This document shows, piece after piece, positions 18,767 to 46,776 of a stretch of 64,000 bases of DNA; the stretch's first letter is position 1; the number at the start of each line of letters is the position of its first letter. The notes below the pieces were generated by a model that made no database searches, was not told the origin of the DNA, and saw only the letters and a list, made by a program, of their open reading frames with translations. This DNA is from a virus. The translations under genes and the position numbers were made by a program. Location: IMG/VR virus record IMGVR_UViG_3300027763_000040, positions 1 to 64,000 of that record; one strand, written 5' to 3'.

Positions 18767-19231
18767 TTATTTTTTGTTTTTACCCCTATAAGTATCAGTC
18801 TGTGCGTGACAATTGGGGCACAGGATACGAAGGTTTTCTAAACGATTATCGTGATGGTTGCCGTTTATGTGATCTAATTCTATAGGTGTTGGTTGATTAT
18901 TCCATTCAGATATACCACAGCACTCACACTTATGTTCTTTGAGACCTTCTGTAATTAATCTTTTTTTAAGTTTATGTGATTGATGATGAGAGTTTTCAGT
19001 TAAGTAGTATTCTATTGGTCTTTTAGGTCCAAGTGTTTTTCCTTTACTCCAACCTTGCCCATTAGCACCATCAGCAAGACTAATGCCAAGTTTTTCTATT
19101 CTTTGTTGGGCAACTTTGTAATTACCACCTGCTTCTTTTAATCCAAGTTTTGATAATACTTGTCTTACGCTAGTAGATGTTTTTACTGCTTCAATAAATT
19201 GATTATCAGTGTAAGTTCTGGGTTTTCCCAT
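18767..19231 (-). CDS. Free-standing HNH homing-type endonuclease
   Basis: The N-terminal 60 residues hold a DNA-binding repeat typical of phage HNH enzymes (QVLSKLGLKEAGGNY, then QQRIEKLGI). The C-terminal zinc-ribbon HNH domain has the CECCG knuckle at 102-105, the catalytic LDHINGNHHDNR at 119-130 and a second knuckle CPNCH at 138-142. It is 154 aa, complete and intact. It lies 48 nt downstream of an intron-containing tRNA-Leu and carries its own late promoter. Because the intron has no ORF, this nuclease is a candidate for mobilising the intron or its surroundings. Confidence 0.85.
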   Translation of the reverse strand: MGKPRTYTDNQFIEAVKTSTSVRQVLSKLGLKEAGGNYKVAQQRIEKLGISLADGANGQGWSKGKTLGPKRPIEYYLTENSHHQSHKLKKRLITEGLKEHKCECCGISEWNNQPTPIELDHINGNHHDNRLENLRILCPNCHAQTDTYRGKNKK

Positions 19232-19263: not shown

Positions 19264-19279
19264 AAATTTGCCTTTTAAG

Positions 19280-19562
19280 TGCGAGTAGGGAGACTTGAAC
19301 TCCCACGGGCAATGCCCAACAGATTTTCTTACCACTATAGTTTTCACTACCCTTTCGGTTTGTGGTCTGGACTATACCTTCACCATACCTTTCGGTTTAG
19401 GTGTTCCCCGTCTAGTCTCTACACCTTCAAGATTTCTCTTGCTTGGCTCGGTATTGCCATTTTACAGGTTTCACCGAATTTGAGGAATTACACTCATAAA
19501 GTTTCCTAAATGAGGCTCAATTTTCATAAGTCTGGTGTGTCTACCGATTCCACCATACTCGC
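19280..19562 (-). tRNA. tRNA-Leu(UAA) interrupted by a group I intron
   Basis: The exons are 19528-19562 and 19280-19327. Joined, they form an 83-nt class-II tRNA: acceptor GCGAGTA/TACTCGC (7 of 7 pairs), anticodon loop CTTAAAA (anticodon UAA), variable stem GGGC/GCCC and T arm GGGAG-TTCAAGT-CTCCC. The first anticodon-stem pair is a C-U mismatch. The 3' CCA is not encoded; the discriminator is A. The intron splits the anticodon after its first base, exactly where the cyanobacterial tRNA-Leu(UAA) intron lies. The gene has its own sigma70 promoter at 19573-19601. Confidence 0.9.
19328..19527 (-). other. Group I intron in tRNA-Leu(UAA), 200 nt
   Basis: The intron starts ATGAAAATTGAGCC, close to the cyanobacterial tRNA-Leu intron start, follows a U and ends in G (19328), as group I introns require. 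Core elements are present in order: P (ATTCGGTGAAACC), Q (AATACCGAGCCAAGC), R (GTGTAGAGACTAGACGG) and S (AAGGTATAGTCC). It is shorter than the roughly 250-nt Anabaena intron and has no ORF. It is expected to self-splice with a guanosine cofactor. Confidence 0.9.
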
Positions 19563-19601: not shown

Positions 19602-19602
19602 G

Positions 19603-19676
19603 TGCTCCTTGTCGGGATCGAACCGACCTTAGCCGAATTATGAGTTCGGTGCTTTCAACCAGAGAGCTAAAGGAGC
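19603..19676 (-). tRNA. tRNA with CAU anticodon (Met, or Ile if lysidine-modified)
   Basis: Cloverleaf on the minus strand: acceptor GCTCCTT/AAGGAGC (7 pairs), anticodon arm CCGAA-CTCATAA-TTCGG, T arm GTCGG-TTCGATC-CCGAC. The D stem is reduced to about 3 pairs. The CCA is not encoded. The sequence alone does not separate elongator Met from tRNA-Ile(CAU). Confidence 0.85.
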
Positions 19677-19706
19677 ATTCTCTATTCGCAAATAACGAAT
19701 AGCAAA

Positions 19707-19794
19707 TAGTCGCCCAGGGTATCGAACCCTGCCAAAGGCCCTAATCTGGGGCAAAGGACTTATAAGATCCCTCTGAACACCTGTTCTGACGACC
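19707..19794 (-). tRNA. Class-II tRNA-like element, anticodon reads UAU, atypical
   Basis: On the minus strand 88 nt fold with a 7-bp acceptor (GGTCGTC/GGCGACT, two G-U pairs), a canonical T arm (CAGGG-TTCGATA-CCCTG), a long variable region and an anticodon arm with loop CTTATAA. That loop gives UAU (Ile), yet the long variable arm belongs to Leu/Ser/Tyr tRNAs. Position 8 is A rather than U and the D loop is very short. It may be a divergent, recoded or decaying tRNA, and its identity is uncertain. Confidence 0.5.
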
Positions 19795-19796
19795 AT

Positions 19797-19820
19797 AAAA
19801 AACTCAGAATACTACTGAGC
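19797..19820 (-). terminator. Terminator-like hairpin at end of antitoxin gene
   Basis: On the minus strand CTCAG-tagtatt-CTGAG is followed by six T residues. The stop codon of the antitoxin gene lies inside the loop. The T-run ends just before the class-II tRNA 5' end, so it may instead separate mRNA from tRNA by processing. Confidence 0.55.
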
Positions 19821-19985
19821 TTCGTTATTCTCCTCGGTGTGTATTCGTATAAGGTCGTCATCTGCGGGCATCATCACTGCTGCCTGCCCGTTTTCGTTGA
19901 CGATACCTAAATGTTCTCCATTTTCAACTCTTTCCACAAGTTCGTCGAATCTTTCTTGAAACTCTTCCACTGTAAAAACTTCCAT
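19812..19985 (-). CDS. Phd/YefM-like antitoxin, 57 aa, without adjacent toxin
   Basis: Starts MEVFTVEEFQERFDELVERV and continues ENGEHLGIVNENGQAAVMMP. This matches the Phd/YefM antitoxin fold: a short strand, the helical dimer segment with ExFxxRxxEL, a strand, a basic/polar turn and the characteristic AAVMMP strand. The usual C-terminal toxin-binding helix is replaced by a short acidic tail. It lies 3 nt after the 61-aa gene and ends in the hairpin at 19797-19820. No RelE, Doc or other toxin is adjacent, so it may act on a host toxin or as a DNA-binding regulator; both are inferences. Confidence 0.7.
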   Translation of the reverse strand: MEVFTVEEFQERFDELVERVENGEHLGIVNENGQAAVMMPADDDLIRIHTEENNEAQ

Positions 19986-19988
19986 TTC

Positions 19989-20174
19989 TTAAAAGGGATT
20001 ACTGTATGCAAGGCAATCTTCACTTACCCGAGTGCGAACTACTTCCAGTACGCTCATAAACTGGTCAACAGTCTCACATTCTACAACTTGTTCTTTACCT
20101 TCACTCGAATAAAGATAGAACTTTCGTGCAAGAGTATCGACAACGCAACGACTCAAGAACTCTTCGGTTTGCAT
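19989..20174 (-). CDS. Hypothetical 61-aa protein
   Basis: Starts MQTEEFLSRCVVDTLARKFY and has a mixed fold: helix, strand (KFYLYSSEG), strand, then a helix (VDQFMSVLEVVRT). It is the first gene downstream of a consensus promoter at 20200-20228 and is followed 3 nt later by the antitoxin-like gene. It does not look like a known toxin. I believe similar small proteins occur in related cyanophages, but this was not checked. Confidence 0.65.
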   Translation of the reverse strand: MQTEEFLSRCVVDTLARKFYLYSSEGKEQVVECETVDQFMSVLEVVRTRVSEDCLAYSNPF

Positions 20175-20199: not shown

Positions 20200-20254
20200 A
20201 TTATATGACGCTTAGGGGAATCTGTCAAGGGGGATGTGCCAGTTGATCAAGTGT
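20200..20254 (-). promoter_or_regulatory. Full-consensus sigma70 promoter with conserved upstream element
   Basis: TTGACA (20223-20228), 17-nt spacer and TATAAT (20200-20205): both hexamers are perfect. The element ACACTTGATCAACTGGCACA lies at 20235-20254, starting 49 nt before the -10 box. It drives the 61-aa gene and the antitoxin. Confidence 0.85.
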
Positions 20255-46747: not shown

Positions 46748-46776
46748 ATTATAACAAAAATAATATCACTTGTCAA
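46748..46776 (-). promoter_or_regulatory. Full-consensus sigma70 promoter of gp32
   Basis: TTGACA (46771-46776), 17-nt spacer and TATAAT (46748-46753), both hexamers perfect, on the minus strand. It overlaps the end of the DUF1825 gene. Confidence 0.85.

Follow-up and report, generated by a model that had tools for sequence, protein, structure and literature searches.

The cyanophage gene analyzed here encodes a 57-aa protein with a Phd/YefM antitoxin fold that, throughout its lineage, has lost the arginines with which YefM contacts DNA, carries a recurrent short tail motif and keeps a stable place beside tRNA genes. On the sequences compared, the lineage is best read as an antitoxin fold that does not bind DNA rather than as an ordinary antitoxin, and our leading, if tentative, explanation is that of a domesticated cyanophage antitoxin which would act in trans on a host toxin. 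The annotation as such is already known: the family is phrog_375, 'Phd-like antitoxin', listed for many cyanophages. The toxin-less Phd-like genes of many cyanophage genomes have so far been assumed, with no test, to be antidotes or regulators; the arginine loss, the tail motif and the place by tRNA-Ile and tRNA-Met together would narrow this to a protein-binding role directed at few host toxin families. No report of the lineage-wide arginine loss, the tail motif or the tRNA synteny was found in the open-licence literature. The idea that toxin-less antitoxins act on host toxins is in print for another cyanophage, S-CREM1 (PMC9964418, available in part).

The window, that is, the whole 64,000-nt stretch of DNA analyzed, is part of a 98.9-kb virus record, IMGVR_UViG_3300027763_000040, a fragment or contig that also contains psbA. 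The features of the locus are collected in Table 1.

Table 1. Features of the Phd-like locus and its surroundings in the window
Feature	Position	Strand	Basis
Sigma-70-type promoter, TTGACA-17-TATAAT, 12/12	20200..20228 (20228-20200)	-	Promoter scan
61-aa DUF7294 / phrog_662 gene, first behind the promoter	19989..20174	-	ORF list, Pfam, PHROG
57-aa gene of predicted Phd/YefM fold without the DNA-binding arginines, second behind the promoter	19812..19985	-	ORF list, profiles, AlphaFold2 model
Short tail, codons 43-57, with recurrent motif (DDLIRIHT and the residues after it)	19815..19859	-	Sequence comparison
Hairpin resembling a terminator, with a run of six T after it on the minus strand and an overlap with the 3' end of the Phd-like gene	19803..19819	-	By eye
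tRNA-Ile(UAU), long-variable-arm form	19706..19795	-	ARAGORN with pseudogene option; covariation
tRNA with CAU anticodon (tRNA-Met)	19602..19676	-	ARAGORN default
tRNA-Leu(UAA) interrupted by a group I intron (Rfam 19346-19537)	about 19279..19562	-	By eye
HNH endonuclease beside the split tRNA	18767..19231	-	phrog_10822, 4.7e-47

The first-pass annotation, made from the sequence alone, had placed a complete Phd/YefM-like N-terminal domain behind a full-consensus promoter, beside tRNAs and without an adjacent toxin, and all four statements hold. The promoter precedes the 61-aa gene, and the Phd-like gene comes second in the two-gene unit. It is one of two 12/12 TTGACA-17-TATAAT sites in the window, the other being located at 46776 (-). 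Among the best 80 close IMG/VR loci listed, the promoter was found within 330 nt upstream at 12/12 in 62 and at 11/12 in 17, hence in 79 of 80, one locus being too short; a 12/12 site occurred in none of 3168 random windows. Identical copies of both small proteins are present on at least four IMG/VR contigs among the matches listed. The tRNA-Ile, tRNA-Met and tRNA-Leu genes lie directly downstream. The terminator-like hairpin, a palindrome that the scan reports for the plus strand only, extends into the 3' end of the Phd-like gene, which leaves it in doubt whether gene and tRNAs are co-transcribed. The HNH endonuclease is probably a neighbour that stands outside the function of the Phd-like gene.

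The assignment to the Phd/YefM fold is confirmed by sequence profiles together with a predicted structure. Residues 1-43 match PF02604 with an E-value of 8.6e-7 (29.1 bits, just below the cut-off of 29.8), TIGR01552 (phd_fam) is matched at 22.5 bits, above its cut-off of 20.8, and phrog_375 at 2.9e-12. PF02604 was detected at E <= 0.001 in 33 of the 52 relatives in alignment A2, the other 19 falling below; alignment A1 showed too little conservation for a pattern search. The AlphaFold2 model, built from the 52-row alignment, has a mean pLDDT of about 90 over residues 1-40, and the tail blocks score 59 and 46. When this model was compared with the PDB using Foldseek, the first 40 rows were antitoxin chains, mostly named Phd or YefM, among them operator-bound P1 Phd and the N-domain of VapB46, with E-values of 0.004 to 0.25, none at or below 0.001, which are modest for so short a protein. 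VIA-align gave Z scores of up to 7.9, with unrelated rows beginning at 3.8. A sequence search of the PDB returned one chance match for the query (E 5.5), and PADLOC reported nothing for either the 57-aa or the 61-aa protein.

P1 Phd and E. coli YefM share this predicted fold over the first 43-50 residues, but differ from the window protein, which has no toxin gene, lacks the DNA-binding arginines, has an acidic N-terminal domain and ends in a much shorter tail with a different motif. The phrog_375 proteins of cyanophages S-PM2 ('PhDYefM tox-ant domain'), S-TIM5 ('Phd-AT') and S-RSM4 belong to the same family as the window protein (2.9e-12) and are likewise small, without a listed toxin, and embedded in a tRNA-rich neighbourhood. 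Window-like members are 56-57 aa long and lie after DUF7294 and before tRNA-Ile/Met/Leu, whereas S-RSM4-like members are 67-70 aa long, adjoin talC or glutaredoxin, and often have a tRNA-Pro upstream. Every phage record matched (25 and 71) bears one of the labels Synechococcus, Prochlorococcus, cyanophage or marine virus. S-CREM1, a cyanomyovirus, likewise carries toxin-less antitoxin genes, a likeness by description; in those parts of its published account that were available, neither the DNA-binding residues nor synteny with tRNAs is analyzed (PMC9964418).

The loss of the DNA-contacting residues was assessed by aligning 145 distinct phage proteins (134 distinct IMG/VR proteins and 11 further ones, taken from named phages or from the window) with 40 picocyanobacterial antitoxins and two reference sequences. 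Arginines R10 and R31 of YefM are essential for DNA binding, according to the available part of a review (PMC4803016). In the R10 column, the phage proteins have Q (120) or E (25) and none of the 145 has a basic residue, whereas 38 of the 40 host antitoxins have K or R. The R31 column holds R in two of the 145 phage proteins and K or R in 28 of the 40 host antitoxins, in an alignment that is less clear here than at R10, given that 22 phage proteins, mostly S-RSM4-like, have an arginine one column before. The net charge of residues 1-43 ranges from -1 to -11 among the phage proteins, whose groups average -9.7, -5.0, -7.5 and -7.3, and from -2 to +4 among those of the hosts. The basic patch with which YefM binds its operator through R10 and R31 is thus missing from the phage lineage.

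What replaces the usual tail is short and distinctive. The tail of the window protein comprises about 15 residues, as compared with about 30-50 residues after position 43 in the host antitoxins; in total length, 57 aa stands against 48 aa in one host antitoxin and 73-134 aa in the others. The earlier description of a shortened tail is thus correct as to length, but the tail is not featureless: a motif of approximately DD-LIRIHT recurs in 129 of the 134 distinct phage proteins among the matches listed and in none of the 40 host antitoxins, and a stricter pattern in 111 of the 134 and again in none of the 40, both patterns having been devised after inspection of the sequences. The exact octamer DDLIRIHT occurs in 20 of these 134 listed proteins. 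It is common to the window protein and S-SRM01-like proteins, e.g., those of loci L101 and L118, in which the domain before the motif is rather different; S-SRM01 itself has DDLVRIHT and is 38% identical to the window protein overall. The possibility that the motif also marks non-Phd phage proteins was dismissed, as the sole match outside the Phd-like filter (L123) is itself Phd-like. The phage tail is unlike every host antitoxin tail tested and, for this reason, no cognate toxin can be named.

No toxin gene adjoins the Phd-like gene, the neighbours being DUF7294 and the tRNAs. Profiles of RelE/ParE, PIN and Fic each matched none of 14 phage records (the window record and 13 named phages), with positive cellular controls. 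Likely hosts, in contrast, can be rich in such pairs: PF02604 has 26 and 28 matches in two genomes with close psbA relatives, and one and two in two others. The host set used in the comparisons covers 40 of these 57 places, mostly the best-scoring ones (19 in G001, 19 in G002 and two in G004; G001 and G004 are labelled Cyanobium and G002 uncultured cyanobacterium), with starts picked by script and with some near-identical pairs. A downstream ORF was in range for 37 of the 40, and of these ORFs 23 match PIN, six YoeB and four ParE, the last two counts possibly overlapping. Recent capture from the host family was considered and rejected: the phage profile A2 gave no match at E <= 1e-6 in 151 genomes of the family of G001, whereas it recovered all six phage records used as positive controls, five of them outside A2, at 7e-31 to 1e-12.

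With the fold and the tail motif retained, three toxin families absent from the phages and many toxin-antitoxin (TA) pairs in the hosts, neutralization of a host toxin is the best reading of the Phd-like protein and a plausible one. Most economically, the antitoxin fold would have been kept for protein binding and freed from autoregulation, with a host toxin as its natural partner. In the proposed mechanism, the strong host-type promoter would drive expression of the protein, which may fold as a Phd-like dimer; the tail would then bind one or more host type II toxins and hold them inactive. Candidate targets are the partners of Phd/YefM antitoxins in the likely hosts, namely, PIN/VapC RNases and YoeB/RelE, which, if free, might otherwise halt translation during infection. 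The adjoining tRNAs would supply codons that are rare for the host, and could also replace tRNAs destroyed by the toxin. Points against the host-toxin reading include the lack of likeness to the host tails tested, a variability that is greater in the tail than in the domain (median dN/dS of 0.20 and 0.076, respectively), and the fact that R31 is less clear than R10.

Host toxins of these classes have been linked to cyanophage infection. Inactivation of a PIN-PhoH gene in Synechococcus WH8102 increased DNA replication and progeny of phage Syn9 (PMC5490813, available in part), and relE1 is upregulated within 30 min of infection (PMC5498466, likewise in part). Co-expression of the phage protein with host PIN or RelE toxins could thus reveal whether common aquatic viruses carry toxin antidotes. 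The same role was proposed in 2023 for the toxin-less YefM, TacA and MazE of S-CREM1, which were suggested to bind host toxins (PMC9964418, in the part available).

The Phd fold might instead have been reused for another task in host takeover, with a protease or RNA polymerase, for instance, as the target. It is common for small phage proteins to bind host machinery, and the protein is acidic, phage-restricted in the searches made and strongly conserved under purifying selection, with a median dN/dS of 0.087 over the unsaturated pairs from 54 distinct sequences (synonymous change frequently approaches saturation, and saturated pairs were excluded). However, nothing specific points to any such target, and we consider this unlikely.

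The lists of relatives comprised the best 80 of 186, the best 80 of 239 and the best 80 of 279 matches, and the loci of groups A, B and C share relatedness and are not independent. By default, ARAGORN reports only the tRNA-Met of the window; the tRNA-Ile appears when pseudogenes are allowed and the split tRNA when introns are allowed, the latter being mislabelled as Tyr(ata), whereas its counterparts in sister loci are labelled Leu(taa). The 1-kb counts that follow were made with the intron search, and loci too short for a set distance were omitted from both the 1-kb and the 300-nt tables. In the best 80 window-like loci listed (49 distinct proteins), a tRNA lies within 1 kb downstream for all 49, and the first is Ile(UAU) in 44. 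Among the S-SM2-like matches listed (64 distinct proteins), a downstream tRNA was found in 58 of 61 testable cases, with Ile(UAU) in 48, and the nearest upstream tRNA is tRNA-Pro in 32 of 60. For the listed S-RSM4-like loci (22 distinct), the corresponding figures are 15 of 20 testable with tRNA-Pro upstream and 7 of 19 with a tRNA downstream. ARAGORN took the loci as circular, and four tRNA calls span a locus end, including the counted tRNA-Ile of L037. In 12 of the 13 named phages, a tRNA lies no more than 50 nt from one end of the gene, S-RSM4 having one at 670 nt (pseudogene option), and tRNA-Ile(UAU) is immediately downstream in eight. The typical neighbours are tRNA-Ile(UAU), tRNA-Met(CAU) and tRNA-Leu(UAA), and the order Phd, Ile, Met, Leu also occurs in S-TIM5, which is assigned to another genus, Aurunvirus.

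Because the loci share ancestry, which may itself account for the synteny, it represents one stable association and not many independent ones. Codon supply alone may also explain the tRNAs: AUA makes up 187 of the 1007 Ile codons in 24 window ORFs, compared with one of 303 in sampled host TA ORFs. The functional link between antitoxin and tRNAs is thus suggestive only. A possible reason for an antitoxin to lie beside tRNAs comes from the proposal that phage tRNAs counter tRNA-depleting nucleases of the VapC/PrrC type; in the part of the source available, the proposal is made without a link to an antitoxin gene (PMC10264068). Cyanomyoviruses might have in this locus a two-part answer to host RNA-cleaving toxins that moves as a unit across phage genera, the antitoxin, which would no longer bind DNA, capturing the toxin with a short tail unlike the bacterial ones compared and the tRNAs serving as replacements, among them tRNA-Ile(UAU), often in a long-arm form that the toxin may miss; in this full form, the idea is unlikely.

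Also unlikely is a function tied to the tRNAs themselves, in which the protein would bind a tRNA or a processing or modifying factor and help to make, protect or use the phage tRNAs. Besides the proximity in the named phages, this would account for the observation that a tRNA starts within 300 nt downstream of 45 of 46 and 48 of 53 Phd-like genes (one per distinct protein), whereas of the other ORFs in these loci only 54 of 398 and 182 of 1304 have one. However, the loci share ancestry, the protein is acidic (pI 4.05-4.63 in 14 members), unlike most RNA binders, and location alone is weak evidence for a tRNA role since cyanophage tRNA clusters contain several small ORFs.

The two remaining ways of acting on host TA systems involve their regulation. 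Mixed dimers of the phage protein with host Phd, YefM or VapB antitoxins, unable to bind DNA, could disturb host TA control. The dimerization-type fold is conserved without the DNA-binding arginines and the hosts have many Phd/YefM antitoxins, but derepression of host TA genes is of no obvious use to a lytic phage, the recurrent tail would be left unexplained, and the host antitoxins are very divergent, making this reading decidedly doubtful. Direct repression of host TA promoters was one of the two functions that the first-pass annotation had put forward, neutralization of a host toxin being the other, and the two have fared differently. Neutralization is the reading retained above. Repression is disfavoured: although the fold is that of DNA-bound Phd, the lineage as a whole has lost both YefM DNA-contact arginines, and its acidic domain has a net charge that is always negative, so that repression of TA promoters in the host, or of a promoter of the phage, is very unlikely.

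The 61-aa partner, initially listed as unknown, now has a family name, DUF7294 / phrog_662, with its function still unassigned; all 25 members of its alignment match DUF7294 in Pfam, and NCBIfam gave no match. Among the matches listed, a DUF7294-like ORF lies within 60 nt upstream of the Phd-like gene in 77 of the 79 window-like loci of testable length (in L059, one of the two misses, the DUF7294 pattern is off by one residue), and of 78 close loci, 77 have a Phd-like gene next after DUF7294 (61 recognized by filter and 16 on reading), L114 being the single one without it. The two genes are also adjacent in S-SKS1 and S-SRM01, but far apart in S-SM2, Bellamy, S-B05 and SynMITS9220M01; DUF7294 is therefore not an obligate partner. 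The AlphaFold2 model of the 61-aa protein (pLDDT 88.8) has no convincing match in the PDB, to a toxin or otherwise, only weak and scattered rows, and an obvious toxin was rejected on these grounds, an unlisted fold still being possible. Despite the conserved adjacency, a toxin-antitoxin pair in reversed order is scarcely credible, given the separation of the genes in these four phages and a predicted fold for which no convincing toxin match was found. The model gave a VIA Z score of 6.2 to a ribosomal protein and, in a viral structure library, six matches at E <= 0.001, all without a named function, five from cyanophages and one nameless. Its likeness to the periplasmic domain of FtsH (E 0.02 in Foldseek, TM about 0.5) is too weak to interpret.

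Several observations concern the tRNA genes themselves. The displayed annotations of S-SKS1, S-SRM01, S-B43, S-B05 and DSL-LC03 (L162, L163, L166, L167 and L172) omit the tRNA-Ile(UAU) and tRNA-Met beside the Phd-like gene. The group I intron (RF00028) inside the phage tRNA-Leu(UAA) scores 62.1 bits against a cut-off of 50, and the HNH endonuclease gene lies close by on its 3' side; in sister loci the tRNA-Leu occurs both with and without an insert, and nothing specific on a group I intron in cyanophage tRNA-Leu was found in the literature. RF04354 ('Plastid-ycf2 5UTR') matches the antisense strand of the tRNA-Met (+) at 43.3 bits, below its cut-off of 65.7, and this model perhaps contains an antisense tRNA.

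The tRNA-Ile(UAU) of the window and those of L006, L007, L009, L040 and L043 have a D loop of 4 nt and, in addition to the usual arms, a variable arm of 4 bp whose loop is invariably CAGATTA. The window copy was not among the Rfam matches at E <= 1, and the literature search found nothing specific on a phage tRNA-Ile with a long variable arm. In the six aligned sequences, 99.4% of the cells are paired and two-sided changes occur in every helix; 13 of the 28 pairs changed on both sides, a number reached in none of 500 shuffles. Sister loci have an ordinary tRNA-Ile(UAU) of 72-75 nt in the same place, the long and short forms numbering 35 and 43 in group A and two and 58 in group C. In L127 and L135, a 90-nt tRNA-Ile call is followed in tandem by one of 73-75 nt, perhaps the long and ordinary forms side by side.
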